A stretch of 64,000 bases of DNA, taken from Asparagopsis taxiformis (taxonomy: Eukaryota; Rhodophyta; Florideophyceae; Bonnemaisoniales; Bonnemaisoniaceae). The notes below the pieces were generated by a model, which was not told the DNA's origin, did not search any database, and saw only the letters and a list, made by a program, of their open reading frames with translations. Position 1 is the stretch's first letter. Every line of letters begins with the position of its first letter. The stretch is from contig JALQPE010000697.1 in NCBI GenBank assembly GCA_030407315.1, forward strand, positions 1 to 64,000, read 5' to 3'. The position numbers and the translations under genes are program-made. This document shows, piece after piece, positions 6,220 through 51,131 of this stretch.

Positions 6220-6221
6220 GT

Positions 6222-6270: not shown

Positions 6271-6279
6271 ATTTGTTCT

Positions 6280-24984: not shown

Positions 24985-25648
24985 TGTAGTATACGTGGCA
25001 ATTCCGAAATTGCAAATATTTACGTTTTCCGCGGAATTCGAATTTCGGCGGACACGACCGGCGACAGCAATGCACGAACATTGCTGGCGCATGCGCGCGC
25101 GCAACCGGCACACGTGTGCAACGAACGTACTGGCAACGGCCAACGGACCAACGGGTCCCTACGTGTGACCCACAAGGTCCTTTCCCATTCGGGGACGTTA
25201 CGAACAGTGTTTACACTGTAAAGCGATGCCATCGTGGCCACATAGGTATTAGCATCGTGCCGGGAGGGAAAGGGGACAATACATCGAACGAGCAACGGCT
25301 CTAGTCTACGACTGACTTCTACGTTTTACGTTTACGTTTTGCCTAGCGAGGCTTCGTCTCCGTCGAGCTGCGTACTCCCTACCCATCGCCGCACGTAAGG
25401 CTGATTGCGTGTAGTGCCTCCGGGCTTGGTTGAGAGCGCCTCCGGTGACGTACCACCTCGTTTGCTAACGTAATCCTCGCGTGGATTGTTGCGTCGTGAC
25501 GCTCGTGTCTACTCGCTAACCACTCTACCTTCTACCGTTCTAACAATACAGTCAAACACCAGCGGGTGGACTGCTCGTTTCGTTTCGTAAGGACAGCGTG
25601 TCCACTGGCTCGTACCAGCTACTACGTCTAACGAACTATCGTTCCACA
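24985..25648 (+). repeat. 5' LTR of element A
   Basis: 664 bases from TGTAGTATAC to CGTTCCACA. There is no canonical TATA box; an AAATATTT sits near the start, and an ACGTTT-rich stretch lies near 25,322. Confidence 0.95.
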
Positions 25649-25649
25649 C

Positions 25650-25662
25650 TGGTCTCTCGACC
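25650..25662 (+). promoter_or_regulatory. Candidate primer binding site, element A
   Basis: TGGTCTCTCGACC begins one base after the 5' LTR, where the minus-strand primer site is expected, and starts with the TGG that complements a tRNA CCA end. It is identical in element B. I cannot assign the tRNA. Confidence 0.6.
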
Positions 25663-25747
25663 TAGAAGTTGCTACGAGCATAACGACAACCAACGAGGTT
25701 GAGCTCTTTTACGTTAACGAAAAGCTACGTGCTACAGACGACGGTCT

Positions 25748-28153
25748 ATGAATTACGCTGTGTCGAATTCCAGCGCGTCGCCCAGGCAACCGTTGCCAAC
25801 GTCAGCGGACGCCGAAGCCGACGTGGCCTTGTCAGCAGAAGCGATCTTCGCGACTGATCGATCTATCCCGCCGGATATCGAGGCGATCGGCCAGCTACCA
25901 CGTACGGTAAGCCCGTTTGAGTCCGTGAGCATGGACCCCGCAACGCGCGGTCAGCTCAACGAAGGGAACGTGACTCCCACGGCACTACGTGTAGTGTACG
26001 AAGACCTTCGAGGTCACATGGAAAGGGCGAGCGACGCGGCCGTCGACGAAGCCGTAAGGCAGAGACTCGGAGTCTCGGAGCGCGAAGCTCGTGCGTTACG
26101 TGAACGCTCAGCGACCCTCGAACGGGAAAACGAAGATTTACGAAACCGCCTCTCCGCCGTGGAGGGAAGACTCGACTCGTTTGTCGTAGTATTCAACGAA
26201 ATCGTCGCCGGACATTCCGCTCCGCCGAGCGGAAGCGATCCGAATTACGAAGACGGCTCGCGCGCCTATAACTCGCAATCCTCCCCGGCCGTTCCGGGAG
26301 GATACCCACCAACACCCGGTCCGACGACCCCGACAACGTACGGAAGGGGGGCGACAGTGCAGCGAGCCATCGCCAACCCCAACGAGACGCCACGAAGGCA
26401 ATTACGTTTTAACGACACGCCAGACCACGCGCGGTCGGCGGACGCAGCACGAGCTGCACAACTCGATACGAGAGCTCCCCCGCCACGTGAGACGTACATT
26501 CCGTGGCTGGGTACGTTCGGCACGACGGACACGCGAGTCCACGAAAACGAACGTGCCGACGCGGTACGCCTACCAGGGAACGCCCTCGGACCCGTTTGCC
26601 ACGCGTTGGCAGAGCACACAACAATGCTCGACGCATTTGCGAACGTGGTGTCGTACCGCATGTACCGACTTAACGATGTACGTGAACATCTCTACGTGAA
26701 CGAGAGTCAAAGCGTACATAAGCTCAAACGTGAGCTGGAGGGACTTTTCCCTACGTTGAAGCCGTTCTCCGGCCGGAATCCGATTACGTTACTCGGATTC
26801 CTCGCCCAAATACGTGATGGGTTCAGCACACTCGGAGTGTGCGAGGGAGTGGCAGTACGTGCGCTGCACTTCTTCCTCGAAGGGGACGCCCGACGGTTCT
26901 ACGATTCCCAGTGTACGACTGGCGTGATCACGACTGATCCGACGAAGAGGTTCTCGTGGCCTCACGTAATCAACGCGTTGATTAAACGATACCTGCAAGA
27001 CGACGTGCTGCAGGAGGCCTACGAAAGGGTCACGATGATCACGCAGAGTCCTAACGAGGACGAGAATCAGTACGCTGATAGACTCGACACCGCCACGCGG
27101 GCGTGCAACTACGTGTTTACGGATCGACTCCTCGTTCACCACTACGTACGTGGTTTGCTGCCCTCGACGCGGGCAGCCGTGACGGAACGACTCCGGTCAC
27201 TTCCCGAGCGAGAGAGGAACGACCTCACCGTTGTGAGACGATTGGCGACGGCCGAAGGAACGACCTTCCGTGCACGTACGGCAGCTGTCGCGTCAGCCGC
27301 GAAACCGAAAGTGCGGTTTCCGGTGAAGCCTACGTTGGCTATTTCCGACCACGAGTCGAGGAAGTTCGCGGACTACGATGAGTCCGCGTACTTACGTAAT
27401 GAACGGGCTAGCGAGCCCAGTTACCACGATGGTAACCCGAACATCCCCGCGAGGGATGATGACGACGTGTCGCTCGCTGCGGCTCACGTTGCCGAGAATT
27501 TGGAGGCGATCCTCTTCACGAACGGGCCGCCGCCCAACGATACGAAAACGGCAAACGAAAAGCCGGACGAGCTCGAAGCTCGATTGAACCGTCCATGCGA
27601 GGACGTGCCGAAGCTCACGTGCGAGCAGACGCAATTGGCGCATTCCATAATCCCGAATGATTACTGGACGCTGTCGTGTTGGTCATGCCGCGAAGATGGC
27701 CACTCGACGTTTACGTGTCCGCGTCTGACGCCAGATCAACGGATCTTTTTCGCGTACAAGTACTACCTCTTCCACGTGAAGAGCAACCCACGTCAGGCTG
27801 AGTACTTCCGCCAACGAATGGCTAAACGTAACCAGGAACGACCTGGCGAGCGAGGGAACGTGAACCCGCGGAGGTACGGCACGCCGCCTACGATACTCCG
27901 AAGCCCCAATCGTGACGGGGGGAGGCCCTTCGACCGGCGCCGCGGCGACTTTCGTAATGACCGACGTGACCCCCGCCCGTGGGCGAACGAACGAAATGGC
28001 CAGCGTAATGGCCGCAGCGGAGTCTACGTGACGACCTCCGCTGACGAGACACCACTCGAGGTGGAAACGAGTCACGATGACGAACGAGCTTCGTGGGCTC
28101 ACGACGACGACGTGTCGAACGGCCTCGCGCCGGGAAACGAGCAGGCGATGTAG
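25748..28153 (+). CDS. gag: Gag of element A
   Basis: 801 codons from an ATG about 100 bases after the LTR. It packages element RNA into particles, as known for Ty3/Gypsy Gag. A heptad-rich helical segment lies at about residues 95-145 (EREARALRERSATLEREN). The capsid core is at about 335-500 (FSGRNPITLLGFLAQIRDGF, NEDENQYADRLDTATRACN). A complete CCHC zinc knuckle is at residue 644 (CWSCREDGHSTFTC), followed by an Arg/Gly/Asn-rich tail. The stop TAG lies 13 bases after a GGGAAAC slip site; pol continues in the -1 frame. It differs from Gag of B at roughly a dozen residues. The ATG context is weak (T at -3). Confidence 0.95.
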   Translation: MNYAVSNSSASPRQPLPTSADAEADVALSAEAIFATDRSIPPDIEAIGQLPRTVSPFESVSMDPATRGQLNEGNVTPTALRVVYEDLRGHMERASDAAVDEAVRQRLGVSEREARALRERSATLERENEDLRNRLSAVEGRLDSFVVVFNEIVAGHSAPPSGSDPNYEDGSRAYNSQSSPAVPGGYPPTPGPTTPTTYGRGATVQRAIANPNETPRRQLRFNDTPDHARSADAARAAQLDTRAPPPRETYIPWLGTFGTTDTRVHENERADAVRLPGNALGPVCHALAEHTTMLDAFANVVSYRMYRLNDVREHLYVNESQSVHKLKRELEGLFPTLKPFSGRNPITLLGFLAQIRDGFSTLGVCEGVAVRALHFFLEGDARRFYDSQCTTGVITTDPTKRFSWPHVINALIKRYLQDDVLQEAYERVTMITQSPNEDENQYADRLDTATRACNYVFTDRLLVHHYVRGLLPSTRAAVTERLRSLPERERNDLTVVRRLATAEGTTFRARTAAVASAAKPKVRFPVKPTLAISDHESRKFADYDESAYLRNERASEPSYHDGNPNIPARDDDDVSLAAAHVAENLEAILFTNGPPPNDTKTANEKPDELEARLNRPCEDVPKLTCEQTQLAHSIIPNDYWTLSCWSCREDGHSTFTCPRLTPDQRIFFAYKYYLFHVKSNPRQAEYFRQRMAKRNQERPGERGNVNPRRYGTPPTILRSPNRDGGRPFDRRRGDFRNDRRDPRPWANERNGQRNGRSGVYVTTSADETPLEVETSHDDERASWAHDDDVSNGLAPGNEQAM

Positions 28154-28177
28154 GTCACGAGCCACCCACATCGCCTG
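28132..28177 (+). promoter_or_regulatory. -1 ribosomal frameshift signal, gag-pol junction (A)
   Basis: GGGAAAC at 28132-28138 is read in the gag frame as G GGA AAC, the canonical X XXY YYZ arrangement. Three bases later, 28142-28151 pairs perfectly (10 of 10) with 28168-28177 around a 16-base loop; the gag stop lies at the end of the left arm. After a one-base backward slip, reading enters the pol frame at 28138. The spacer is shorter than the usual 5-9 bases, so the lowest pairs may be opened by the ribosome. Both parts are conserved in element B. Confidence 0.8.
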
Positions 28178-31100
28178 AACCCTTACGTAAAAGGGGGACG
28201 ACCGACGTCGATGATTGGTCCTCCGCAGGCTCACCGATGAACGAGAGTTACGTAAAGCTCACGGCCGCGAAGGCCAACTCGAGTCACACGACACCCGACG
28301 TGGGGGAAGACACGAAGTCCGACGGGACAAGCGAACCTCACACGAAGAGGAAGTCTCGCAGACGAGCGAGGCGCGCTACCCGGAAGCACGACGCTTCCGA
28401 GCGCGAGAAAGCCAAGCACGCGGCTTATACGAAGCGTGCAGACGCAAAAGAATCCATACGGGCTTATACGGTGAAGCGACGAACCGCCAACGAAGACGTA
28501 GACCGCGCGCCGGTCAGGACCGAACCACTGGTTCTCGACGGGCATACGTGCCTACTTTCTTCGAAGCATTATATCGTGTCCGGAACGATAGGACTAGACC
28601 TCAACGTGATGAGGGCGATTACCATCGCGATGGATACGTGCAGCGGCTACAACTTGATACGAACAAGTTTACTACCCTACGACTGGGTCGACCGCTGTCT
28701 ACGTGACGAAGAGCTACCGAAGCTCGGAGACGCCAACGGGCGACGTTTGCCTATCGAAGGCGCCATCCTGCTTCGTGTCAGGCTGGGGAACTCGCTGTTC
28801 CGCGTAAAATTCTTCGTAGCCAACACGCTGGCTGTTCCCATCATAATGGGCACGTCATTCATGTCGAAGCATGTCGATGCTATACGCTGTCGAGCGCAGA
28901 CAATCGAACTCCATCGGGGAGATACGATACCCATTATCGCGGAAGGCGATACGACGACTCCGTACGAGGAGGGGGAAGAGATGAATCCAAACGTGGAACA
29001 CCCGAAGCGCCGCGAGCGTAACGCGGCCTCGAATAGGCCGAGCCGAACGTTCTCGGTTCGCCTGACGAAGTACACGCGTGTACCGGCGATGTCGCAACGG
29101 ACCGTCAACGTGACAACGGACGCGACCGGACTCGTGTTCCTCGAACCAAAAGCGTCGGTGCAATTCCGGCATGGGCTGCGCATAGCCAACGGAGTGGTCG
29201 ACGTAGGACCGAGAGAGACGTTCTCTATCATCGTGTCGAACTCCACGAAGAAGGATCGCGAATTGCCGAAAGGCGCGACGATTGCGTACGCGGTACGCTC
29301 CCCGTTGGGAATCGTCCCACTCAAGCGTGAGGGCGGCGAAGCCCTCTCGAAGGTTTTGAACCTACCGCTAGTCGACGCGACGACGCGGACAAATACGAAC
29401 GGGTTGGGCGACGAAACGCCAGACCCGTTGGTCAACGAAAAGGGGAACGACCCCGCCACGAATTGGCAGTCGACAATCGATTTGTCGCACCTCGACGACG
29501 AGAATTTACGAAAGCGCATCAACGAGATGCTAGCTACACATTCGTCAATGTGGACGAGCGGACGCCTTGGCGAAATCAATGCTACGGAGCATCGAATCGA
29601 ACTCGAACCGGGCACGCGGCCCATACGTTCAATGCCCTATCGACAGGGTCCGGCTCTACGTACGATAGCCGAGGAGCAGATAACGAAGATGCTCAACGAG
29701 GGGGTTATCGAACCCGCGTCCAGCGAATGGGCGTCACCAATCGTGTTGGTGCCGAAGAAGAACGGATCCTTACGTTTCTGTGTCGACTACAGGCGTTTGA
29801 ACGCGAAAACGATCGCTGATTCGTACCCGCTTCCTCGTATGGAAGACTGCCTCGATTCGTTGGGCGACGCCGCCATCTTCACGACACTCGATTGTAACGC
29901 CGGTTACTGGCAAGTGCCCGTCTCCGCCGAGGACCGTGATAAGACAACGTTTACGTCTTTCATGGGAACGTATCGCTACGTGCGAATGCCATTCGGGCTA
30001 CGAAATGCCCCCGCTACGTTTCAGCGGACGTTGGACATCATCCTCTCCGGAGTACGTTGGCAATCGTGCCTGGTCTACTTAGACGACGTAATCGTCTTTT
30101 CGAAAGACCTCGAGTCTCACCTGGGTCACGTTGACCAGGTGCTTTCCCTGCTACGCGCAGCAGGAGTAACGTTAAAGCTCACGAAGTGCTCGTTCTTTCA
30201 ACCACGAGTTGACTACCTGGGGCACGTGATCACCCCAGGGAAGCTGCACGTCGCAGCTCGGAACAAGGAAGCCTTTCGTACGGCTACGTTCCCACGAGAC
30301 AAGACGCAATGTCGATCGTTTTTGGGCGCGGCCAACGTTTACCGCCGTTTCGTAAAGGCGTATGCCGAGATCGCTCGGCCACTCAACACGATGTTGAAGA
30401 AGGACGCTTCCCCCGATTGGACGAACCCAACGGACGCGCAAACGAATGCGTTCGAAACGTTGAAGACAATACTGGTGTCGCCACCAGTATTGCACCTTCC
30501 GAAGGCGGGACGTCCGTTCATGATCGATACCGACGCGTCGGCGTATCAGCTGGGAGCTACGTTGCTCCAGCAGCAGAACGAGGACAAGCCCAACGAATGG
30601 GTGCCGATTGGGTACTGGTCGAAGACCCTCAACGAAACCGAACGCGGTTACTCGGCGACCGAGCGCGAGTGCTACTCCGTCGTCTGGACGATAACGTCGC
30701 TCCGACCCTACGTAGAGGGTCAGCGGTTCACCGTACGTACGGACCACGAAGCCTTACGTTTGCTGATGACGTTGACGGACGCGTCCGGACGACTACTACG
30801 ATGGAGGCTACGCGTTGCCGAATTCGATTTCGAAGTTACGTACAGGCCTGGGCGCGTGCACCAGGTACCTGACGCTTTATCACGTGTGATATCTACGTAT
30901 GACAACGGTCGACCCGTCGACGATGACGTACCATCGTACGGGGACGCAGTCCTCGTGACGACTCGCAGTCGGCGACAACCCACACGAAATGGGCAAGGAC
31001 GAACGACGTCCGTACGTAAAAAGGCAACGAATGCCAGGGGTCACGACGACCCGTCGAACGAGACTCGTGATGAACGAACATCAGCCACGACGGCTGGCCA

Positions 31101-32682
31101 CGATGGCCTCGAGTTCAACCGCGACGCGTCGCTCGATGACATTCTTGACGAGGAACCGGATTTCCTCGACGAACAGCGCGCTGCTGAAGACGATTCGGCA
31201 CGCGTGCCACCAGCTGACGTTCAGCTTCCCATTACGAGGGACGAGCTTATCGAAGCTCAACGCGAGGATGCGTTCTGTCAAACGATACTGACACGACAGT
31301 CCGACACGCAGGACGCCGCATTCTTCGAAGGCCACGATGGCTTACTCCGACGCCGGAACCCTCACGACGAGGAACGTACACAAATCGTTGTGCCGGCTTC
31401 GTTACGGCCGCGGCTGCTGGAGTTAACGCACCACCACGTCCTCGCTGGACATCCCGGACAAACGCGTATGTACTATACCCTACGGAGGACGTACTACTGG
31501 CCCGCGATGGCCGCCGACATCCACGCAACGGTACGAAACTGCGTTGGATGTGCGAAGAACCGCGTGAAGCTTCGCAAACGGACGAACCCGTTACGTTTAT
31601 TCCCGGCTACGGAGCCGCTGCGAGACCTATGTATCGACATACTAGGTCCGCTGACGAAGACCACGCGTGGCAACCGATTTATTCTCGTGATAACGGACCG
31701 CTTCACGAAGCTGACTAGAGTCGTACCTCTACGAAATATCGATTCCGCCAACGTGGCGAGCGCGTTCGTCAACGCGTGGGTCTTCTCGTATGGACTCCCA
31801 TGGACGCTCATAAGCGACAACGGAAAGCAGTTCGCTGCTAAGTTCTTCCAGCGCGTTTGCAACGAGATTGGCGTAACGAACGTCTTTACGTCGACGTACC
31901 ACCCCCAAACGAACGGGCAGGTGGAGCGTTACAACAGGACGATCCTGGCCATGCTGCGTAATTACGTGAACGAAAACCAGAACGACTGGGATCGATACGC
32001 ATCGGCGTTAACGTTTGCGTACAACACGCATGTGCATTCGAGCACGGGCACGACGCCCTTCGACTTGATTCTCACGAATCCACCGCCACCGTTGGCGCTA
32101 CACACGTCGGTAACGAACCGCGAACTACCCGACGGGGGAGGGCGAGCCACTTACGTGCGTGAGCTCGCCACAACGATGGATAACGCGTATCGAACGCTGA
32201 CGGCCGCGCAGGCACGTTATAAACGAAATTTCGACAAACGAGTCCGTGTCTCGAATCGAAACATCCGCGCGGGAGAATACGTATTCATCGACCCGACGGA
32301 CGGGACCACGAAGGGCACGAAGCTCGGCAACCACGCGTTGGGACCGTTTCGCGTACTACGTAACGACGTACGAACGTTCGTCATCCAACGAGGAGACGTA
32401 GTTGAACGTGTCAACTCGGACCGCGTTGCGTACGCGCCAACGCCGGCGAACGCGCCCCCGCCGGAGCCATACGATGCCACCGAGGCAGACCTCGACAAGA
32501 ACCGCGACGGTCCGGCGTATGTAGTAGACGACCTACTCAACCATCGCGTAAACGATGACGGCACCCTAGACTTCCTCGTGAAGTGGGTCGGGTATCGTAA
32601 CCCTACGTGGGAGCCCCGCCGGAACGTATCTGAAGAGAGCGTCTCTCGATACTTCGCACGCGTGCGACGAGCAACAACGTGA
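28138..32682 (+). CDS. pol: Pol of element A (protease-RT-RNase H-integrase-chromodomain)
   Basis: 1514 codons in the -1 frame relative to gag, uninterrupted; the first ATG in this frame is at 28237 if reinitiation is used instead. Basic N-terminal linker (KRKSRRRARRATRK). Aspartic protease with the unusual active-site string MDTCSGYN at about residue 166, where DTGA or DSGA is usual. RT: RFCVDYRRLN, TTLDCNAGYWQVP and YLDD at 647. RNase H from about 795 (DTDASAYQLG, TDHEALRLL; B has the usual RWL). Integrase: HHCC finger from about 1097 (HHVLAGHPG...CVGC) and a D-D-35-E triad at about 1167, 1226 and 1262 (DILGP, SDNGKQF, QVERYN). C-terminal chromodomain about 1460-1510 (DFLVKWVGYRNPTWEP), known in chromoviruses to guide integration to modified histones. 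Confidence 0.95.
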   Translation, partial: RAGDVGHEPPTSPEPLRKRGTTDVDDWSSAGSPMNESYVKLTAAKANSSHTTPDVGEDTKSDGTSEPHTKRKSRRRARRATRKHDASEREKAKHAAYTKRADAKESIRAYTVKRRTANEDVDRAPVRTEPLVLDGHTCLLSSKHYIVSGTIGLDLNVMRAITIAMDTCSGYNLIRTSLLPYDWVDRCLRDEELPKLGDANGRRLPIEGAILLRVRLGNSLFRVKFFVANTLAVPIIMGTSFMSKHVDAIRCRAQTIELHRGDTIPIIAEGDTTTPYEEGEEMNPNVEHPKRRERNAASNRPSRTFSVRLTKYTRVPAMSQRTVNVTTDATGLVFLEPKASVQFRHGLRIANGVVDVGPRETFSIIVSNSTKKDRELPKGATIAYAVRSPLGIVPLKREGGEALSKVLNLPLVDATTRTNTNGLGDETPDPLVNEKGNDPATNWQSTIDLSHLDDENLRKRINEMLATHSSMWTSGRLGEINATEHRIELEPGTRPIRSMPYRQGPALRTIAEEQITKMLNEGVIEPASSEWASPIVLVPKKNGSLRFCVDYRRLNAKTIADSYPLPRMEDCLDSLGDAAIFTTLDCNAGYWQVPVSAEDRDKTTFTSFMGTYRYVRMPFGLRNAPATFQRTLDIILSGVRWQSCLVYLDDVIVFSKDLESHLGHVDQVLSLLRAAGVTLKLTKCSFFQPRVDYLGHVITPGKLHVAARNKEAFRTATFPRDKTQCRSFLGAANVYRRFVKAYAEIARPLNTMLKKDASPDWTNPTDAQTNAFETLKTILVSPPVLHLPKAGRPFMIDTDASAYQLGATLLQQQNEDKPNEWVPIGYWSKTLNETERGYSATERECYSVVWTITSLRPYVEGQRFTVRTDHEALRLLMTLTDASGRLLRWRLRVAEFDFEVTYRPGRVHQVPDALSRVISTYDNGRPVDDDVPSYGDAVLVTTRSRRQPTRNGQGRTTSVRKKATNARGHDDPSNETRDERTSATTAGHDGLEFNRDASLDDILDEEPDFLDEQRAAEDDSARVPPADVQLPITRDELIEAQREDAFCQTILTRQSDTQDAAFFEGHDGLLRRRNPHDEERTQIVVPASLRPRLLELTHHHVLAGHPGQTRMYYTLRRTYYWPAMAADIHATVRNCVGCAKNRVKLRKRTNPLRLFPATEPLRDLCIDILGPLTKTTRGNRFILVITDRFTKLTRVVPLRNIDSANVASAFVNAWVFSYGLPWTLISDNGKQFAAKFFQRVCNEIGVTNVFTSTYHPQTNGQVERYNRTILAMLRNYVNENQNDWDRYASALTFAYNTHVHSSTGTTPFDLILTNPPPPLALHTSVTNRELPDGGGRATYVRELATTMDNAYRTLTAAQARYKRNFDKRVRVSNRNIRAGEYVFIDPTDGTTKGTKLGNHALGPFRVLRNDVRTFVIQRGDVVERVNSDRVAYAPTPANAPPPEPYDATEADLDKNRDGPAYVVDDLLNHRVNDDGTLDFLVKWVGYRNPTWEPRRNVSEESVSRYFARVRRATT

Positions 32683-33393
32683 AAGGCCACGACGGCCCCC
32701 GAAAACGCACACGAGCGTCGGGTTAAGCGCACGCGTGCGCGACGTTGCACGATGCAACAAACGAAGGCGACGAGCCGCACGAACGAGAAGCGAAGGCACA
32801 ACGAGTGGCCAGGACGTCCACCCTTGCGTTGGGGGGGCGCGATGCGTGCTAGAGCCGTCGCTCTTTTCGTTTTCGACACCATACGTTGGTGGAGGCACGA
32901 GCGCCAACGAAAGATTGGACGACGAGTCCACGCGCGGACGATTCACACGATGTGAAGAGCCACGACTGGCTCGACAGTGTTGACCGCCCCACGGGCAAAG
33001 GTGACGACACCACGGGCCACGGACGGACAACACGTCAGATTTTTCGCGCGAAAAATTATGCTTGGGCCAGCGGGCCATGGACGCACGGTACGAAAAATCG
33101 GGCCGATTACAGTGCGCTAATCCGGCCAAATCTCGGGACACGCGTGCTCCGAAAATTTCGTAATTTTGGCATGTCACGTGAGCCATCGTACGCCCCCGTG
33201 GACAGCCGCTGACAACGAGTCGCATCGACCAACGAGGTCAACGCCAACAGCTCGCGAGCTAACGGCAACGTGACGCCGGAAGGCGGAGAAACTACGTAGG
33301 ACGGACGCGTCCCCAACGAAGATGGCAACGGCCTCATTACGAAACTTCCCGCACGAAGCGGAACGAAGCTATACGTTAGCCGACGAATTAGAC
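32683..33393. other. Spacer of element A, part 1
   Basis: Non-coding stretch after pol, matching in inverted orientation about 38,455-39,185 of element B. Element B inserted at its right end; 33389-33393 is the TAGAC target copy. It contains short inverted repeats such as GCGCGAAAAATT and strong enrichment for AACG. Confidence 0.8.
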
Positions 33394-34056
33394 TGTGGAA
33401 CGATAGTTCGTTAGACGTAGTAGCTGGTACGAGCCAGTGGACACGCTGTCCTTACGAAACGAAACGAGCAGTCCACCCGCTGGTGTTTGACTGTATTGTT
33501 AGAACGGTAGAAGGTAGAGTGGTTAGCGAGTAGACACGAGCGTCACGACGCAACAATCCACGCGAGGATTACGTTAGCACACGAGGTGGTACGTCACCGG
33601 AGGCGCTCTCGACCAAGCCCGGAGGCACTACACGCAATCAGCCTTACGTGCGGCGATGGGTAGGGAGTACGCAGCTCGACGGAGACGAAGCCTCGTTAGG
33701 CCAAACGTAAACGTAAACGTAGAAGTCAGTCGTAGACTAGAGCCGTTGCTCGATCGTTGTCTTGTCCCCTTTCCCTCCCGGCACGATGCCAATACCTATA
33801 TGGCCACGATGGCATCGCTTTACAGTGTAAACACTGCTCGTAACGTCCCCGAATGGGAAGGGACCTTGTGGGTCACACGTAGGGACCCGTTGGTCCGTTG
33901 GCCGTTGCCAATACGTTCGTTGCACACGTGTGCAGGTTGCGCGCGCGCATGCGCCAGCAATGTTCGTTCATTGCTGTCGCCGGTCGTATCCGGCGAAATT
34001 CGAATTCCGCGGAAAACGTAAATATTTGCAATTTCGGAATTGCCACGTATACTACA
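33394..34056 (-). repeat. 3' LTR of element B
   Basis: 663 bases; TGTGGAACG to ATACTACA as written on the plus strand, which is the reverse of the LTR of A. Nearly identical to the LTR of C at 58967-59629. Confidence 0.95.
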
Positions 34057-34072
34057 CAGCCCCACCCCCACA
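34057..34072 (-). promoter_or_regulatory. Candidate polypurine tract (B)
   Basis: On the element sense (minus) strand GTGTGGGGGTGGGG plus CTG runs directly into the 3' LTR. The same G-rich run precedes the 3' LTRs of A (ending 51512) and C (from 59630). Confidence 0.6.
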
Positions 34073-34134
34073 CGTGGACGTCCCGGCCACGCGAGGCCCG
34101 TCAGGACGCGCCTGAGACACGGGGCCGTGGCGCC

Positions 34135-34175
34135 TTTTCGGGTACAACTGCGGACGTGGCAGTTGTCCCAAAAAA
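34135..34175 (+). repeat. Conserved hairpin inside the 3' LTR (B)
   Basis: TTTTCGGG(T)ACAACTGC pairs with GCAGTTGTCCC.AAAA around a 7-base loop with one bulged T. In A (51402-51442, minus strand) the single mismatch of B is a G-C pair. Also present in C (59708-59748). It lies between the LTR and the promoter-like box of the antisense gene. Confidence 0.6.
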
Positions 34176-34437
34176 TCTCGTTGAAACGTACATGGCCCGG
34201 TTGGCTGATCGAATCGCCACGGCGCCGGAGCGCGCGCGTGCGCTCCGGCTCTTTCGTAATCATCGCGGCCCGCCCGTTGGCGTCGTACGTCAATGCCTCG
34301 CTTAGGCGTTTTCCTGCAACGGATGCAGTGTCCAATTCCACCACGCGGGTGTGCTTCAATTCAGCGCGATACGAGCGCAGGCCGCGGCCTTTTCGTGAAT
34401 CTGCCAGCGGGCATGTCGACAACGGTCGTCCGAAGGA

Positions 34438-34445
34438 TATTTAAG
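34438..34445 (+). promoter_or_regulatory. TATA-like box of the antisense gene (B)
   Basis: TATTTAAG, about 214 bases before the ATG at 34652, followed by pyrimidine-rich DNA. The same eight bases are conserved in A (51124-51131, minus strand) and C (60011-60018). Inferred promoter; no transcript evidence. Confidence 0.5.
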
Positions 34446-34651
34446 CGGCGGCTTAACGTGATAGCGATCGTCGCTCACCCTTCCTCTCACCATCGTCATC
34501 CAGGCCGTTGCCTTTCGTTCTCCCTTATCCTCTTCCCCCGCTGGGTACTACTACCTCCGTTCCTTTCGTTCTCTTGTTCCGTTTAGCCCGCGTGGCTCTC
34601 GTCGTCGTGCTCGTTGCACTCGTCGTAATTATCGTGTACAGCGTAACCACG

Positions 34652-36892
34652 ATGGTTACGACTCGCAGTACCGATGCTAACACCCCGCGGCCCGCCGGCT
34701 CTGCTGGAGGTGGAGCGAGAACCCCTTCGCAGGGCGCTCCCTCCCTCGTCGGGGCCGGTGCGCCGCCAGCGACGGAAGCGTCCGTCGCGCCCGCCCCATC
34801 CGTGAGGGCGGGTGAAGCCGTTGCTCCCCAGGCCGTCGCCTCTTCGTCTCGCCCCATGGCTCCGTCTCGCCTGGTGGCTTCCGTGACGCCTGCCGAGGCT
34901 GCTAGGGCCGTCGCCCCACGTGATGATGACGCAACGGCGTCCGACTCGGGGAATTCGTCACCCGTCATTCCGGATGCCGCGGCCCCGTCGACGGGTGTAG
35001 CCGCGATGGCAGCGGCCGCTCGTTCGCGTCGTGCTGTGGCGGCGGCCCGCACGGGCGTGCCTCGTCGTGATGGCTCGCCGCGTTCTCCTCGCCAGGACCC
35101 CTCGCCGGAGGGTGGTGACCCCGTTGGGACGGTCGGCACCGCCTCACGTGGCGGTGCGGCGCTAAACGTAGGCGTCCTGACCCACGCGTGGGCTGCGTTG
35201 CCCCGCGTGGGTATCACGGATGACGATCTCGCCACGTTGGCCAGAGATCGTCTGGACGCCCGCGCGGTCGTCGACTATCATGTCGACTATATGCGTTCCG
35301 CCGAAGATACGTGGGGGCGAGCAGCCGGGCGTCGTTTCGCCAACGGGCCGCCGGGATCGGAACGTTACCAGATCCCGGCGTCGATACGTTGCGACCGCTC
35401 GTGGTTGCGTGACGTCAACGACGCGATCTACGTCGACCGTATGGACGCATACTTATGGAAGGGGACGCCCGAGGAACCGCCGTTCATCTCGGTGGCGTCC
35501 GTATTCGTATGTCCGCGGACACTTTCCGAAAGGCAACGTGCCGAATGGAAGACTGCTCTTTCGTTGAGCGTCATCTCCAAAAGCGTCGTGTCGTACGATG
35601 ACCACTTCGCTCTCCGCCACGTGAACGCGGACGACTATCGTGTGTCGCACGCGTCAGCTCCGTGGGTCGTCCCGAGCGAGCTCTACTTCCCGCCGTTGCC
35701 GGAAGTAGTCGAGGAGTTTCCGTACCCCCGTGGGTCGTCCACGTTATTACCACGCGTGGTACATTATTTCACCGATGCCGTGAAGGACGCGCCTGCCCCC
35801 GTGAAGGAACGTTTCCTTATGGCCGTGGACATCGAACACGCAGCGATGCTCGCGTGCTCGCTATTCGTGGAACGTCGTGTGTTCGGGCGCGCGTGCCTAC
35901 TGCCGGAGTCCACGTTGGACTTCCTGGCCGATTACGAGATGCTTCGTGCAATCCCGGTTGACGGTTCCGACACGTTTGTCTCCGTCACCAGCGCGTTGGC
36001 TGAGGTTCGCGGCGCCCTTGCGTTGGGGCCGGAGTATCGGGTTATACGTCCCGATTACGCAAGCGGCGATAACCAGGAGTTCGTCTCCGTTCGTAGCGAT
36101 GGGGCTTACGTGCCGCGGGTCGCTTCCCGTTCCGAACGCCGTCGTGGCAATCGTGCCGGTTATTTCGGCGGCCTCGGGGGCAACGAGCGCCCCCGAGGGA
36201 CACGTTCTGGCCGTCGTGGCCATCAAAACGAAGCGCCGCGTGCGCCGGATCCTCGAGAGGTCGTGCCACGCGAGGCTACGGAAGGGGGCAACGTTGCCCA
36301 GGTCGTTCGTCCGAATGTGGCCACGCCGGCCGAACGCGCGCCACGCTTCGTGAGCCTGGACGACCGCGTCTCCGATGAGGATGCCCGTCGGCTTCTCGGT
36401 ACGTCGATGTCCGCTCCGCCTCGTGCGGACGGCTGGGTTATTCGTTCCCTCATCTCGTCCGTGGCTCGCGCAGCCGAAGAGTTCAGGGCCCAGACGTTGG
36501 ACCTGACTGCCCGCTTGGCAACGGAACGCGCGATTTCGGAGCGTCTCGCCGCGGCGACTCGTAGTTACGCGCCGCCCGTTGGCGTTCGTAATGAACCGTA
36601 CGGTTACGCGAGTGGCGGCGGCTTCGGCGACCCCGTCGGGTATGGTCACGCAGCGGCGTACCTGCCACGCGACCCCGCTCCGGCGCGCCCTTCGGATACG
36701 CGCAGTCACGGGACTGCGGATCCTTACGCTAGGGATCCCGCGTCTCGTCGCGAGCGAGCCCCCGTGGTCACGCAGACCGTCGATCCGTACGCGCCGGGCT
36801 TCGTTCAGCCCAGTCGCAGCCGCAGCCACGATAGCCGCGGCGAAGGCCCTGGTCCGTATGACCCTGCGGGCAAGCGTTCTCGTCGCTACTAG
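34652..36892 (+). CDS. Antisense gene of element B (746 aa), function unknown
   Basis: Runs opposite to gag-pol between pol and the 3' LTR. The ATG at 34652 has A at -3 and G at +4; the open frame extends further upstream to a TTG at 34508, but this extension lacks an ATG. The protein starts MVTTRSTDANT. Residues 1-165 are Pro/Ala/Ser-rich and probably disordered. About 170-480 is a compact block (LNVGVLTHAWAALPRVGI, DVNDAIYVDRMDAYLWKG, VDIEHAAMLACSLFVERRV) with no domain I recognise. About 495-525 is an Arg/Gly-rich stretch (YFGGLGGNERPRGTRSGRRG). About 600-640 is a heptad helix (LTARLATERAISERLAAA). The tail has SRSRSHDSR and ends KRSRRY, NLS-like. The same gene, broken, is in A and C. Antisense ORFs at this place are known in plant Tat-lineage Gypsy elements, but I see no similarity I can claim. 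Confidence 0.8.
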   Translation: MVTTRSTDANTPRPAGSAGGGARTPSQGAPSLVGAGAPPATEASVAPAPSVRAGEAVAPQAVASSSRPMAPSRLVASVTPAEAARAVAPRDDDATASDSGNSSPVIPDAAAPSTGVAAMAAAARSRRAVAAARTGVPRRDGSPRSPRQDPSPEGGDPVGTVGTASRGGAALNVGVLTHAWAALPRVGITDDDLATLARDRLDARAVVDYHVDYMRSAEDTWGRAAGRRFANGPPGSERYQIPASIRCDRSWLRDVNDAIYVDRMDAYLWKGTPEEPPFISVASVFVCPRTLSERQRAEWKTALSLSVISKSVVSYDDHFALRHVNADDYRVSHASAPWVVPSELYFPPLPEVVEEFPYPRGSSTLLPRVVHYFTDAVKDAPAPVKERFLMAVDIEHAAMLACSLFVERRVFGRACLLPESTLDFLADYEMLRAIPVDGSDTFVSVTSALAEVRGALALGPEYRVIRPDYASGDNQEFVSVRSDGAYVPRVASRSERRRGNRAGYFGGLGGNERPRGTRSGRRGHQNEAPRAPDPREVVPREATEGGNVAQVVRPNVATPAERAPRFVSLDDRVSDEDARRLLGTSMSAPPRADGWVIRSLISSVARAAEEFRAQTLDLTARLATERAISERLAAATRSYAPPVGVRNEPYGYASGGGFGDPVGYGHAAAYLPRDPAPARPSDTRSHGTADPYARDPASRRERAPVVTQTVDPYAPGFVQPSRSRSHDSRGEGPGPYDPAGKRSRRY

Positions 36893-37031
36893 GTCGTTCC
36901 TAGGTTAGTTCGTAGGCCACGTCGGCTCTAGCATCGTATTATTGCTTCGTAAACTTCGTCTTGTTTCTTTGCGTAATCGCATGGCTCCGTTGAGCTTCGT
37001 AATTTGCGTTTGGCAGGTCGTCTGCAGCAGA

Positions 37032-37077
37032 GGAGGGGTTTAGCGTTAAGCCCCTCCCCACAATTTTTTTGTTGTGG
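37032..37077 (+). terminator. Double hairpin 140 bases after the antisense gene stop
   Basis: First stem 37032-37038 with 37051-37057 (GGAGGGG/CCCCTCC, extendable inward). Second stem 37058-37063 with 72-77 (CCACAA/TTGTGG) around T7. Present in A (about 48,505-48,550, minus) and C (about 62,614-62,659). It could protect or define the 3' end of the antisense transcript; this is inference. Confidence 0.45.
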
Positions 37078-37239
37078 CGTCTACCCCGTCGGGTGTCGTA
37101 TGGCTTACGTAGCCCGTGCTTCGAGTTCGCGGCGGCGCGTGCCCGTTGGCAGGTTCGTAACACACGCAATTATTCGGCAAAGCGGCGGCGCGTAGCGGCG
37201 GCTTTTCACTGCGAGTGGTACGTTAACCTCGATCTTAGA

Positions 37240-37926
37240 GCCCGTTGGCGTGCGTATCATTTAGTAACTAACTCGAAAATCGTTTCCGCCGTCGTTTCTC
37301 GTTCGGATAACCCCGTCGGGTGTCGAATTTCGTTGAGCATTCGAGCTCCTTAGCGCGTAGCACATCGGTGCCAATTTTAATTTTGCTCCGATGAGCTTGG
37401 CGGAAAATTCGTCGAACGTCAGACCGACGCGCACGTGAGTCGGTTTGACGTTCTACGCCGTGGCGTGTACGCAGTAATTCGTCGCAGTACGTTGCGGTTT
37501 CGTTGACGACGTGGTGGCCGGCGGGCTTGGCTTTTCGTATAGCCGTTGACGTCATTAGCGCCGTCGCGCTTCGCGTTGCCGCGGCTTCACGTTGGCCAGT
37601 GGCGTTATCATTTTGTAACTATCTCGGAATTCGTTTCCGCCGTCGTTCCTCGTGCGGATAACCCCGTCGGGTGTCGAATTCCGTTGAGCATTCGAGCTCT
37701 CTGGCACGTAGCACGTCGGTGCCAATTTAATTCGCTCCGGTGAGCTGGACGAAAAATTCGCTAAGCGTCAGGCCGACTCGCGCGTGAGTTGGCTTGACGT
37801 TTCACGCCGTTGCGTGTACGCGGCAGTGCGTCGTGGTTCCCTAGACAACGTTTTTGCCGGCGGGCTTGGCTTTTCGTATAGCCGTTAACGTTATTAGCGC
37901 CGTCGCGCTTCACGTTCCCGCGGCTT
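37240..37926. repeat. Two diverged tandem units of about 345 bp (B)
   Basis: Both units share TCGTTTCCGCCGTCGTT, GATAACCCCGTCGGGTGTCG, GTTGAGCATTCGAGCTC and GGCGGGCTTGGCTTTTCGTA in the same order. Each has a 14-bp hairpin (37415-37428 with 37439-37452; 37766-37779 with 37786-37799) whose only non-Watson-Crick positions are G.U pairs on the plus strand. Confidence 0.8.
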
Positions 37927-39185
37927 CACGTTAGCCGGTGGCGCAATCGTTGCGCTAGTCCGCTTCGCGTGGTAGCGTCGTTCGCCGCGGCGTCCGAGGA
38001 GCGTTTCGTTAGCTCATTCGTTATGTGGTGCGACGTGCACCTGGGCATACGTAATGCTCGCCCTCTACGCCGTTGCGTAATTTCGTTTATTCGACTTGCG
38101 AACCCGACGGGGACGCGATTGACGGGGTCGTTTCGCATGCCCGCGGGCGTTTGAGGCTGTTACTCGTGAGCCAAGTTCGTCGGCAGACGTTGCCTTCAGC
38201 TGTGCCGTTTACGTTGGCTACCGCTTGGACGCCGTTGCGTATTCGTGTTTCGTTACGTGCGTTCGACTGGCCGGCGGGCTTTTCGCTTCCGCGCGTCGTT
38301 CGTTATGCCCGCGTGGCAGGACACCGTTGTGTCGTTCCGTGGTTGCCGTACGTGGCTACCGCGTTCGGCGTCGTGCCTCACGATGGCGATACGGTTCGCC
38401 GTCCGTCGTCGCGGCCTCGTTGGCTCGTCGTTCGCACGCTTTACTCGCGCGCTTCGTGCGCTGAGACCCGTTGGTCTAATTCGTCGGCTAACGTATAGCT
38501 TCGTTCCGCTTCGTGCGGGGAGTTTCGTAATGAGGCCGTTGCCATCTTCGTTGGGGACGCGTCCGTCCTACGTCGTTTCTCCGCCTTCCGGCGTCACGTT
38601 GCCGTTAGCTCGCGAGCTGTTTGGCGTTGACCTCGTTGGTCGATGCGACTCGTTGTCAGCGGTTGTCCACGGGGACGTACGATGGCTCACGTGACATGCC
38701 GAAATTACGAAATTTTCGGGGCACGCGTGTCCCGAGATTTGGCCGGATTAGCGCACTGTAATCGGCCCGATTTTTCGTACCGTGCGTCCATGGCCCGCTG
38801 GCCCACGTATAATTTTTCGCGCGAAAAATCTGACGTGTTGTCCGTCCGTGGCCCGTGGTGTCGTCACCTTTGCCCGTGGGACGGTCAACACTGTCGAGCC
38901 AGTCGTGGCTCTTCACATCGTGTGAATCGTCCGCGCGTGGACTCGTCGTCCAATCTTTCGTTGGCGCTCGTGCCTCCACCAACGTATGGTGTCGAAAACG
39001 AAAAGAGCGACGGCTCTAGCACGCATCGCGCCCCCCCAACGCAAGGGTGGACGTCCCGGCCACTCGTTGTGCCTTCGCTTCTCGTTCGTGCGGCTCGTCG
39101 CCTTCGTTTGTTGCATCGTGCAACGTCGCGCACGCGTGCGCTTAACCCGACGCTCGTGTGCGTTTTCGGGGGCCGTCGTGGCCTT

Positions 39186-42100
39186 TCACGTTGTTGCTCG
39201 TCGCACGCGTGCGAAGTATCGAGAGACGCTCTCTTCAGATACGTTCCGGCGGGGCTCCCACGTAGGGTTACGATACCCGACCCACTTCACGAGGAAGTCT
39301 AGGGTGCCGTCATCGTTTACGCGATGGTTGAGTAGGTCGTCTACTACATACGCCGGACCGTCGCGGTTCTTGTCGAGGTCTGCCTCGGTGGCATCGTATG
39401 GCTCCGGCGGGGGCGCGTTCGCCGGCGTTGGCGCGTACGCAACGCGGTCCGAGTTGACACGTTCAACTACGTCTCCTCGTTGGATGACGAACGTTCGTAC
39501 GTCGTTACGTAGTACGCGGAACGGTCCCAACGCGTGGTTGCCGAGCTTCGTGCCCTTCGTGGTCCCGTCCGTCGGGTCGATGAATACGTATTCTCCCGCG
39601 CGGATGTTTCGATTCGAGACACGGACTCGTTTGTCGAAATTTCGTTTATAACGTGCCTGCGCGGCCTTCAGCGTTCGATACGCGTTATCCATCGTTGTGG
39701 CGAGCTCACGAACGTAAGTGGCTCGCCCTCCCCCGTCGGGTAGTTCGCGGTTCGTTACCGACGTGTGTAGCGCCAACGGTGGCGGTGGATTCGTGAGAAT
39801 CAAATCGAAGGGCGTCGTGCCCGTGCTCGAATGCACATGCGTGTTGTACGCAAACGTTAACGCCGATGCGTATCGATCCCAGTCGTTCTGGTTTTCGTTC
39901 ACGTAATTGCGCAGCATCGCCAGGATCGTCCTGTTGTAGCGCTCCACCTGCCCGTTCGTTTGGGGGTGGTACGTCGACGTAAAGACGTTCGTCACGCCGA
40001 TTTCGTTGCAGACGCGCTGGAAAAACTTAGCAGCGAACTGCTTTCCGTTATCGCTTATGAGCGTCCGTGGGGGTCCATACGAGAAGACCCACGCGTTGAC
40101 GAACGCGCTCGCCACGTTGGCGGAATCGATATTTCGTAGAGGTACGACTCTAGTCAGCTTCGTGAAGCGGTCCGTTATCACGAGGATAAATCGGTTACCA
40201 CGCGTGGTCTTCGTAAGCGGACCTAGTATGTCGATACATAGGTCTCGCAGCGGCTCCGTAGCCGGAAATAAACGTAACGGGTTCGTCCGTTTGCGAAGCT
40301 TCACGCGGTTCTTCGCACATCCAACGCAGTTTCGTACCGTTGCGTGGATGTCGGCGGCCATCGCGGGCCAGTAGTACGTCCTCCGTAGGGTATAGTACAT
40401 ACGCGTTTGCCCGGGATGTCCAGCGAGGACGTGGTGGTGCGTTAACTCCAGCAGCCGCGGCCGTAACGAAGCCGGCACAACGATTTGTGTACGTTCCTCA
40501 TCGTGAGGGTTCCGGCGTCGGAGTAGGCCATCGTGGCCTTCGAAGAATGCAGCGTCCTGCGTCTCGGACTGTCGTGTCAGTATCGTTTGACAGAACGCGT
40601 CCTCGCGTTGAGCTTCGATAAGCTCGTCCCTCGTAATGGGAAGCTGAACGTCAGCTGGTGGCACGCGTGCCGAATCGTCTTCGGCAGCGCGCTGTTCGTC
40701 GAGGAAATCCGGTTCCTCGTCGAGAACGTCATCGAGCGTCGCGTCGCGGTTGAACTCGAGGCCATCGTGGCCAGCCGTCGTGGCCGATGTTCGTTCATCA
40801 CGAGTCTCGTTCGACGGGTCGTCGTGACCCCTGGCATTCGTTGCCTTTTTACGTACGGACGTCGTTCGTCCTTGCCCATTTCGTGTGGGTTGTCGCCGAC
40901 TGCGAGTCGTCACGAGGACCGCGTCCCCGTACGATGGTACGTCATCGTCGACGGGTCGACCGTCGTCATACGTAGATATCACACGTGATAAAGCGTCAGG
41001 TACCTGGTGCACGCGCCCAGGCCTGTACGTAACTTCGAAATCGAATTCGGCAACGCGTAGCCTCCATCGTAGTAGTCGTCCGGACGCGTCCGTTAACGTC
41101 ATCAGCCAACGTAAGGCTTCGTGATCCGTACGTACGGTAAATCGCTGACCCTCTACGTAGGGTCGGAGCGACGTTATCGCCCAGACGACGGAGTAACACT
41201 CGCGCTCCGTTGCCGAGTAACCGCGTTCGGTTTCGTTGAGGGTCTTCGACCAGTACCCAATCGGCACCCATTCGTTGGGCTTATCTTCGTTCTGCTGCTG
41301 GAGCAACGTAGCTCCCAGCTGATACGCCGACGCGTCGGTATCGATCATGAACGGACGTCCCGCCTTCGGAAGGTGCAATACTGGTGGCGACACCAGTATT
41401 GTCTTCAACGTTTCGAACGCATTCGTTTGCGCGTTAGTTGGGTTCGTCCAATCGGGGGAAGCGTCCTTCTTCAACATCGTGTTGAGTGGCCGAGCGATCT
41501 CGGCATACGCCTTTACGAAACGGCGGTAAACGTTGGCCGCGCCCAAAAACGATCGACATTGCGTCTTGTCGCGTGGGAACGTAGCCGTACGAAAGGCTTC
41601 CTTGTTCCGTGCTGCGACGTGCAGCTTCCCTGGGGTAATCACGTGCCCCAGGTAGTCAACTCGTGGTTGAAAGAACGAGCACTTCGTGAGCTTTAACGTT
41701 ACTCCCGCTGCGCGTAGCAGGGAAAGCACCTGGTCAACGTGACCCAGGTGAGACTCGAGGTCTTTCGAAAAGACGATTACGTCGTCTAAGTAGACCAGGC
41801 ACGATTGCCAACGTACTCCGGAGAGGATGATGTCCAACGTCCGCTGAAACGTAGCGGGGGCATTTCGTAGCCCGAATGGCATTCGCACGTAGCGATACGT
41901 TCCCATGAAAGACGTAAACGTTGTCTTATCACGGTCCTCGGCGGAGACGGGCACTTGCCAGTAACCGGCGTTACAATCGAGTGTCGTGAAGATGGCGGCG
42001 TCGCCCAACGAATCGAGGCAGTCTTCCATACGAGGAAGCGGGTACGAATCAGCGATCGTTTTCGCGTTCAAACGCCTGTAGTCGACACAGAAACGTAAGG

Positions 42101-43729
42101 ATCCGTCCTTCTTCGGCACCAACACGATTGGTGACGCCCATTCGCTGGACGCGGGTTCGATAACCCCTTCGTTGAGCATCTTCGTGATCTGCTCCTCGGC
42201 TATCGTACGTAGAGCCGGACCCTGACGATAGGGCATTGAACGTATGGGCCGCGTGCCCGGTTCGAGTTCGATTCGATGCTCCGTAGCATTGATTTCGCCG
42301 AGGCGTCCGCTCGTCCACATTGACGAATGTGTAGCTAGCATCTCGTTGATGCGCTTTCGTAAATCCTCGTCGTCGAGGTGCGACAAATCGATTGTCGACT
42401 GCCAATCCGTGGCGGGGTCGTTCCCCTTTTCGTTGACCAACGGGTCTGGCGTTTCGTCGCCCAACCCGTTCGTAGTTGTCCGCGTCGTCGCGTCGACTAG
42501 CGGTAGGTTCAAAACCTTCGCGAGGGCTTCGCCGCCCTCACGCTTGAGTGGGACGATTCCCAACGGGGAGCGTACCGCGTACGCAATCGTCGCGCCTTTC
42601 GGCAATTCGCGGTCCTTCTTCGTGAAGTTCGACACGATAATAGAGAACGTCTCTCTCGGTCCTACGTCGACCACTCCGTTGGCTATGCGCAGCCCATGCC
42701 GGAATTGCACCGACGCTTTCGGTTCGAGGAACACGAGTCCGGTCGCATCCGTCGTCACGTTGACGGTCCGTTGCGACATCGCCGGTACACGCGTGTACTT
42801 CGTCAGGCGAACCGAGAACGTTCGGCTCGGCCTATTCGAGGCCGCGTTACGCTCGCGGCGTTTCGGGTGTTCCACGTTTGGATTCGTCTCTTCCCCCTCC
42901 TCGTACGGAGTCGTCGTATCGCCCTCCGCGATAATGGGTATCGTATCCCCCCGATGGAGGTCGATTGTCTGCGCTCGACAGCGTATAGCATCGACATGCT
43001 TCGACATGAACGACGTACCCATTATAACGGGAACAGCCAGCGTGTTGGCTACGAAGAATTTTACGCGGAACAGCGAGTTCCCCAACCTGACACGAAGCAG
43101 GATGGCGCCTTCGATAGGCAAACGTCGCCCGTTGGCGTCTCCGAGCTTCGGTAGCTCTTCGTCACGTAGACAGCGGTCGACCCAGTCGTAGGGTAGTAAA
43201 CTTGTTCGTATCAAGTTGTAGCCGCTGCACGTATCCATCGCGATGGTAATCGCCCTCATCACGTTGAGGTCTAGTCCGATCGTTCCGGACACGATATAAT
43301 GCTTCGACGCAAGTAGGCACGTATGCCCGTCGAGGACCAACGGTTCGGTCCTGACCGGCGCGCGGTCTACGTCTTCGCTAGCGGTTCGTCGCTTCGTCGT
43401 GTGAGCCCGTATGGCTTCTTTTGCGTCGACACGCTTCGTATAAGCCGCGTGTTGGCTTTCTCGCGCTCGGAAGCGTCGTGCTTCCGGGTAGCGCGTCTCG
43501 CTCGTCTGCGAGGCTTCCTCTTCGTGTGAGGTTCGTTCGTCCCGTCGGACTTCGTTTCTTCCCCCACGTCGGGTGTCGTGTGACTCGAGTTGGCCTTCGC
43601 GGCCGTGAGCTTTACGTAACTCTCGTTCATCGGTGAGCCTGCGGAGGACCAATCATCGACGTCGGTCGTCCCCCTTTTACGTAAGGGTTCAGGCGATGTG
43701 GGTGGCTCGTGACCTACATCGCCTGGTCG
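39186..43729 (-). pseudogene. pol: Pol of element B, frameshifted
   Basis: Same architecture as Pol of A: MDTCSGYN protease, YLDD RT, RNase H with the canonical LRWLM, HHCC finger, D-D-35-E integrase and chromodomain, ending at the same residue. Near 43,451 one base is missing relative to A (plus strand GTGTTGGC against GTGCTTGGC in the A equivalent). The frame entered from gag by -1 slippage therefore runs off into an unrelated tail, while the protease-to-chromodomain part is open in another frame. Only an additional shift, or help from an intact copy, would give enzyme. The rest is well conserved, so the deletion is recent. Confidence 0.85.
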
Positions 43730-43735
43730 TTTCCC
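43690..43735 (-). promoter_or_regulatory. -1 frameshift signal, gag-pol junction (B)
   Basis: GGGAAAC (complement of 43729-43735) in the gag frame and the same perfect 10-bp stem (43716-43725 with 43690-43699) as in A. Only the base change in the spacer (GAC for GAG) differs. Confidence 0.8.
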
Positions 43736-46119: not shown

Positions 46120-46209
46120 AGACCGTCGTCTGTAGCGTAGCACGTAGCTTTTCGTTAACGTAAAAGAGCTCAACCTCGTTGGTTGTCGTTATGCTCGTAG
46201 CAACTTCTA

Positions 46210-46222
46210 GGTCGAGAGACCA
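46210..46222 (-). promoter_or_regulatory. Candidate primer binding site, element B
   Basis: Same 13 bases as in A, one base inside the 5' LTR in element orientation. Confidence 0.6.
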
Positions 46223-46223
46223 G

Positions 46224-46885: not shown

Positions 46886-46890
46886 TAGAC

Positions 46891-50917: not shown

Positions 50918-51123
50918 CGTGGTTACGCTGTACACGATAATTACGACGAGTGCAACGAGCACGACGACAAGAGCCACGCGGGCTAGACGAAACAAGAGAA
51001 CGGAAGGAACGGAGGTAGTAGTACCCAGCGGGGGAAAGAGGTAAGGGAGAACGAAAGGCAACGGCCTGGATGACGATGGTGAGAGGAAGGGTGAGCGACG
51101 ATCGCTATCACGTTAAGCCGCGG

Positions 51124-51131
51124 CTTAAATA
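51124..51131 (-). promoter_or_regulatory. TATA-like box of the antisense gene (A)
   Basis: TATTTAAG on the minus strand, about 207 bases before the ATG; here it overlaps a perfect 16-base palindrome TTAAGCCG plus its reverse complement. Confidence 0.45.

Follow-up and report, generated by a model that had tools for sequence, protein, structure and literature searches.

Several long terminal repeat (LTR) retrotransposons and retroviruses carry open reading frames (ORFs) that run against gag and pol. In plant Gypsy elements of the Tat lineage (Grande with its gene23, RIRE2, Retand), a large antisense ORF is found between pol and the 3' LTR in many copies (PMC11963269, PMC7264820). In Grande, gene23 is transcribed from a promoter of its own and its product is nuclear (PMC7264820), and the region between pol and the 3' LTR is enlarged in Retand (PMC7264820, PMC11963269). 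The Boty element of Botrytis cinerea and Sclerotinia sclerotiorum reportedly also carries an extra ORF that lies past pol, before the 3' LTR, in antisense orientation (PMC7264820). Among deltaretroviruses, HBZ of human T-cell leukaemia virus (HTLV) and APH-2 are antisense genes near the 3' LTR with a nuclear product (PMC11963269), and transcription of HBZ begins in the 3' LTR (PMC7264820). Here we analyse a window of 64,000 nucleotides from the red alga Asparagopsis taxiformis (contig JALQPE010000697.1, positions 1 to 64,000), where a chromodomain Gypsy element carries a large antisense gene at 34652-36892.

A preliminary description of this window had invoked the plant Tat ORFs as a precedent, and this precedent is real (PMC11963269, PMC7264820). 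In a survey of plant elements, the lineages without extra ORFs were the shortest, and the largest elements, many of them with extra ORFs, were non-chromoviruses (PMC6317226); since the plant antisense ORFs are heterogeneous, its authors asked whether they have any function. Chromoviruses have been mentioned in red algae (PMC3605345). Passages of an Ectocarpus survey deal with Gypsy lineages that have a chromodomain and with accessory genes in DNA transposons of red algae, but not with such a gene (PMC12477816), and passages of PMC9289625 contain nothing on an antisense gene of chromodomain elements. In the openly licensed papers searched we found no antisense gene in a chromodomain family, Boty, of unexamined chromodomain status, aside; this agrees with the preliminary description. 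Steinbauerova (2011) reportedly found that plant chromoviruses have extra ORFs in their 5' regions only. Antisense extra ORFs as such are well known; one common to families of an algal chromodomain clade is a new form of them.

The stretch 34652-36892 is a real protein gene under selection. This gene, called B, has 746 codons from its ATG and 811 from stop to stop, and it occupies the DNA between pol and the 3' LTR of an element that we call II, where it is read against gag-pol; its copies A and C belong to elements I and III of the same family. When A and B were compared in the gene frame, we counted 67 silent and 28 replacement differences, and within residues 222-490 there were 36 silent and 5 replacement changes. 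The ratio of replacement to silent substitution rates (dN/dS) over break-free pieces is 0.19 for residues 1-205 and 0.13 for residues 222-746; by block, it is 0.034 (222-330), 0.045 (331-490), 0.59 (linker, 491-620) and 0.10 (621-746). In unbroken pieces of the same two elements, dN/dS is 0.21 for gag and 0.08 for the pol core. The preliminary description had seen in the gene the signature of a selected protein, with differences gathered in low-complexity linkers. Both points are borne out, with dN/dS of 0.03-0.05 in the core versus 0.59 in the linker, where 13.5 of the 27.5 replacement changes are found (counted over residues 1-205 and 222-746). A dN/dS near 1 along the central block, which the preliminary description had named as a refutation, is not what the copies show. 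Its statement that the central block is almost unchanged holds for the protein but not for the DNA, of which this is the most diverged stretch (35201-36100, 900 bp: 44 differences between A and B, 37 of them at third positions).

The DNA is GC-rich here (61-63% guanine plus cytosine), and other long frames overlap the gene, including one of 335 codons in all three copies, as might be expected if the frame were open by chance. However, in 500 dinucleotide shuffles of 34059-39185 the longest stop-to-stop frame had 531 codons (mean 250), none reaching 811, and the codon pattern of 67 silent versus 28 replacement differences refutes a chance frame, to which we give practically no weight. The 335-codon frame, on the opposite strand, has 10 silent versus 31 replacement changes and the overlapping 182-codon frame 4 versus 27; as these frames lack a silent excess, coding on the opposite strand is ruled out as the origin of the pattern. 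Another idea is that the antisense RNA matters and not the protein, convergent transcription giving double-stranded RNA that dampens the element. Such a role has been discussed for plant elements (PMC7264820), and the promoter predicted here points to pol, but the 36 silent versus 5 replacement changes of the core would be left unexplained; we consider it very improbable as the sole function, although it could be an additional one.

The same selection is seen among other copies in the genome. A genome search with the gene gave 2,432 candidates, of which the best 60 were scored; all 60 are full-length, stop-free and 98-100% identical. With an RT (reverse transcriptase) piece of 433 residues we found at least 97 near-identical pol copies; both counts are lower bounds for this genome of 141.5 Mb. 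Twenty of the 60 genes lie within 9 kb of one of the 97 pols on the same contig, and in all twenty the gene lies 3' of pol and runs the other way, at 3,663-4,221 bp from the RT piece. Thirty open copies were fetched. B has a 12-bp in-frame tandem duplication (VDYHVDY, at about 35150-35300, residues 200-210) that is absent from the other 29; being 12 bp longer, it was set aside, and these 29 (28 different) were used for variant counts. Among them, 99 variants are silent and 43 are replacements, of which 20 fall at residues 496-559; the ratio of replacement to silent polymorphism (pN/pS) is 0.18 when pooled and 0.057 at residues 170-486. Third positions hold 99 of the 137 variable sites in the gene, versus 32 of 81 for the same phase in the 1,100 bp upstream of the ATG. 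The start context ACCACGATGG is present in 30 of 30 copies.

One chromodomain Gypsy family is present three times in the window, with element II nested within element I; the features are as follows (TSD, target site duplication):

24985-33393 and 46886-52176, sense plus: element I, TSD GCGTG, interrupted at 33393/46886
24985-25648, plus strand: 5' LTR of element I
25718-28153, plus strand: gag frame of element I, with a Retrotrans_gag match
28081-32682, plus strand: pol frame of element I, with chromodomain
33394-46885 (13,492 bp), sense minus: element II, TSD TAGAC, inserted in element I
33394-34058, minus strand: 3' LTR of element II, with an inner edge known to within 2 bases
34436-34445, plus strand: predicted TATA-type box GATATTTAAG, about 216 bp from the ATG of B and, in 28 of 30 copies, 210-218 bp upstream of the start codon
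34652-36892, plus strand: antisense gene B of element II, 746 codons
35150-36139, plus strand: conserved core of the antisense protein B, residues 167-496, homologous to the C1601-family gene
36440-36565, plus strand: heptad-like stretch, coiled-coil candidate, residues 597-638, from a simple heptad score only
39186-43652, minus strand: pol frame of element II, stop to stop, with RT, RNase H, integrase and chromodomain
43714-46188, minus strand: gag frame of element II, stop to stop, Retrotrans_gag E 2e-6
46224-46885, minus strand: 5' LTR of element II, with 2 mismatches and 3 gap positions versus its own 3' LTR
48690-50917, minus strand: antisense gene A of element I, frameshifted
51513-52176, plus strand: 3' LTR of element I, start uncertain by 2 bases either way, with 2 mismatches to its own 5' LTR
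58967 to past the window end: element III, with its 3' LTR and then gene C
58967-59631, minus strand: 3' LTR of element III
60226-62477, plus strand: antisense gene C of element III, frameshifted

In a Pfam scan, both pol frames in the window matched RVT_1, RT_RNaseH, Integrase_H2C2, rve and Chromo above the cut-off, with Chromo at E 1.7e-7 in element I and 1.6e-7 in element II. The order RT-RNase H-integrase with a C-terminal chromodomain, together with LTRs and the 5-bp TSDs TAGAC and GCGTG, is that of a chromovirus. Since each LTR pair differs by 2 mismatches, insertions I and II look young. The preliminary description had placed a gene of this size opposite gag-pol in three copies. It was right about elements I and II, and A, B and C are all present; for element III the pol falls outside the window (a pol copy is found at C697:66482-67780, minus strand). 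Relative to B, deletions of 12 bp and 1 bp in gene A and insertions of 1 bp and 10 bp in gene C put both out of frame.

Some other observations concern these elements. The silent divergence (dS) between A and B is 0.14 in the antisense gene (0.19-0.24 in the core), versus 0.036 in gag and 0.06 in the pol core of the same elements I and II, and gene A differs from each of the 30 fetched copies by 75-102 mismatches; the gene block of element I may come from recombination with a diverged subfamily. Between protease and RT, both pols have a weak dUTPase-like stretch (E 0.03-0.04, under the Pfam cut-off). Between the antisense gene and pol of element II (36893-39185), BLAST revealed two diverged (82%) tandem units of about 360 bp at 37246-37951, recalling the plant Retand repeats; elsewhere in the window, a 43-bp tandem repeat of about ten or more units occupies 5705-6306. 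A Retand-like tandem array was not supported, as TRF (Tandem Repeats Finder) called no array: it reported no repeat other than an 18-bp unit within the gene, and nothing in L042 and L048, the loci of two related families.

The predicted TATA-type box is in internal DNA, about 380 bp inside from the 3' LTR, and is oriented towards pol; its motif TATTTAA occurs only once in element II on both strands, at this position. The antisense protein has low-complexity ends, Arg/Gly sequence, a basic tail, one conserved core and the heptad-like stretch. These features suit an RNA-binding assembly protein, and selection shows that the protein matters to the element, so that it could be a structural or replication partner, for example a second RNA-binding particle protein, cytoplasmic and not a nuclear regulator. 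Against this, the protein matches neither gag nor pol at E <= 1 and no gag family in Pfam, and a separate antisense transcript would be an odd route to a particle protein; we judge such a role unlikely. The location between pol and the 3' LTR would also suit an envelope-like protein for cell-to-cell transfer. But its orientation is antisense, and a 19-residue hydropathy scan detected no transmembrane-like or envelope-like helix, the top mean of 1.71 being inside the conserved core; an envelope function is highly improbable.

No relative of the protein was found outside the genome. Gene B has no Pfam match at E <= 1 and its core none at E <= 5 (the filters drop most matches above 0.1). In a database of 5.8 billion proteins, the whole gene gave none at E <= 0.001 among 7,984 scored and a search with residues 165-495 yielded none at E <= 10 among 7,992 scored, negatives that hold at the sensitivity of the search tool. 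As a yardstick, pol was searched in the same database: 7,866 of 7,953 scored proteins match, the best being 72% identical. The abundance of pol matches means that the collection covers this element lineage, and since the antisense protein finds no relative while pol reaches 72%, its evolution is faster than that of pol or its distribution narrower. Viral contigs searched with pol, B and two alignments gave no relative. When solved structures were searched with a profile of B and its C1601 homologue, three chains were obtained (best E 0.088), which we took as chance.

These searches bear on the possibility that the gene was captured from a host, is selected for a host-derived activity and spreads with the element. 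The large insert, its own predicted promoter, the opposite orientation and the lack of homology to other element genes are consistent with this, and a single-copy host relative could sit below the 60 scored of 2,432 candidates. However, no relative was detected among the 5.8 billion proteins at the sensitivity of the tool, and because a diverged homologue follows pol in a second family, any capture would be old. We regard host capture as improbable.

The downstream DNA was examined for twelve RT places in the genome, and two further families, C1601 and C3, have a chromodomain-type pol end (judged by eye from the L048 frame for C1601 and the L042 frame for C3) with a long antisense frame there. 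In C1601 the antisense gene has 1,150 codons (L048:957-4406, minus strand), with pieces in L039, L043, L044 and L046; at least 42 copies were scored, 98-100% identical, five of them with stops. Homology between the B and C1601 proteins extends over some 200 residues (blastp E 3e-6 and 2e-4 depending on direction; hhalign score 43.1 versus a maximum of 24.7 in 30 shuffles) and takes in the motifs IPxxxxxDRxxLxxxxDAxYVxRM (B letters differ in places), AxDYRV and DAP. This homologue goes beyond what the preliminary description knew. The C1601 gene also looks selected: dN/dS is 0.14 (core 0.065) versus L046 and 0.16 versus L043; other comparisons gave 0.52 versus L044, where the end is perhaps misaligned, and 0.39 versus L039, from four changes. 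In C2713, C2714 and C2298, a C1601-type gene lies 5' of another RT, at the identical distance of 3,555 bp in all three; this arrangement is probably one repeated nested unit.

The antisense frame of C3 has 1,114 codons (L042:2872-6213, minus strand); 41 copies were scored, many of them partial or stop-containing. Ten of these 41 pair with one of 17 RT rows (picked from 150), and in all ten the gene is opposite to pol and 3' of it, at 5,005-5,182 bp. Homology of C3 to B was not supported by BLAST (best E 0.12, in low-complexity sequence), nor by hhalign (13.6 and 15.0, under the shuffle maxima; a profile score of 18.8 was equalled by 4 of 40 shuffles), and the C3 protein has no Pfam or database match. 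Its best-aligned piece is the same motif, and it has similar low-complexity ends, heptad-like stretch and basic tail, from which we do not claim homology.

The RT of C1601 is 65% and that of C3 60% identical to that of the window family, and an RT tree places all three families in one clade of 55 rows (100/100), in which the window family groups with P0004 and P0008, C1601 stands apart and C3 groups with C158 and C2451; the tree uses 69 of 131 gathered RT rows, mostly unnamed database proteins with no curated chromovirus references. From the C1601 homologue and the absence of the gene in C158, the gene either is older than the split between the window family and C1601 or was transferred from one to the other, and at least one relative does not have it. 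Long frames opposite RT were also seen in L040 (434 codons) and L049 (601 codons); the latter gave no blastp match to B.

Other sequences were noted in passing. L050 contains gag and part of pol of the window family. At L041:1161-3523, frames matching RRP5 OB-fold (oligonucleotide/oligosaccharide-binding)/S1 domains begin directly after the end of a C158-family element. Two frames that are 93% identical (L041:4157-4954 and L046:3870-4667) lie near two different C158-family elements and look by eye like bacterial-type elongation factor G. The genome gave ten light-harvesting-protein matches, and 11 of 13 phycobiliprotein matches are on contig C469, as three adjacent pairs, single genes and one 892-codon frame. 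We take the pairs to be phycoerythrin, phycocyanin and allophycocyanin of the red-algal plastid, and the matches as a whole fit a red-algal host.

With moderate confidence, we read the gene as the third gene of a chromodomain Gypsy element, whose protein, kept by selection, is likely nuclear and would regulate transcription or integration through the nucleic acid of the element. What is directly seen is where the gene lies and which way it runs, selection at codon level, an open frame in many copies and a homologue, likewise antisense, that follows the C1601 pol. The predicted TATA-type promoter just inside the 3' LTR would drive transcription towards pol, against gag-pol; the protein may then enter the nucleus, act on the element's own nucleic acid and so regulate its transcription or integration. 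The architecture of the protein and the plant Grande and Retand genes are what suggest nuclear location, nucleic-acid binding and a regulatory role.

Several points weigh against this reading. The nuclear role is drawn from analogy. Copies A and C of the window are frameshifted, and the ranking of the scored genome matches favours copies with open frames, although this choice alone would not yield more silent than replacement variants. Older copies without the frame, which the preliminary description had held to count against it, are not seen among the best scored matches, none of which is interrupted, whereas the related family C158 does lack the gene at this place: in the copies seen it has no room for it, since the repeat common to two loci stops 426 bp past the pol frame. 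When taken whole from stop to stop, gag and pol are less constrained, with dN/dS of 0.31 each (the ends are perhaps misaligned). In the 600 bp that precede the C1601 and C3 genes, no TATA-like box of the types sought was found. AlphaFold models were unusable, with a mean pLDDT (predicted local distance difference test) of 34.3 alone and 36.3 with the homologue. In a phmmer search of a nine-sequence set, B and C1601 gave an i-Evalue of only 0.0043 with a negative whole-sequence score. Finally, among the four listed C1601 gene-RT pairs (4 of 42 genes within 9 kb of one of 22 RT rows picked from 150), three place the gene 5' of RT and one places it 3'.

Compared with algal and plant chromoviruses, the element has the same order of gag followed by RT-RNase H-integrase-chromodomain and the same 5-bp TSD, but it is 13.5 kb long with an added antisense gene. 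HBZ is alike in lying antisense near the 3' LTR, but its transcription starts in the 3' LTR and the predicted box here is internal. Boty, a fungal element, reportedly has its ORF in the same position and orientation. The closest likeness is to the antisense ORFs of plant Tat elements, found in the same place and orientation and in many copies. Yet the element differs from these by its chromodomain, by a single RNase H-type region with no additional RNase H family in Pfam, by having no tandem array called by TRF and by its red algal host, and its antisense protein, unlike the Retand and Grande products, has no Pfam match to Transposase_28 (PF04195) or the plant mobile domain. With regard to the question of function raised for the plant ORFs, the core here is more constrained than gag, no fewer than 60 near-identical copies have an uninterrupted frame, and a second family has a diverged homologue. 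Such a system would allow direct tests of what antisense proteins of this kind do, how old they are and whether they arose repeatedly. We tentatively suggest, as a possibility somewhat short of even, that an algal chromovirus clade has an ancestral antisense third gene, selected more tightly than gag and encoding a new protein family, with the motifs given above as its core pattern and no likeness to described accessory proteins; this gene would be independent of the plant Tat genes and convergent with them in place and orientation. If this convergence is true, antisense regulators would be a recurrent solution of large LTR retrotransposons.
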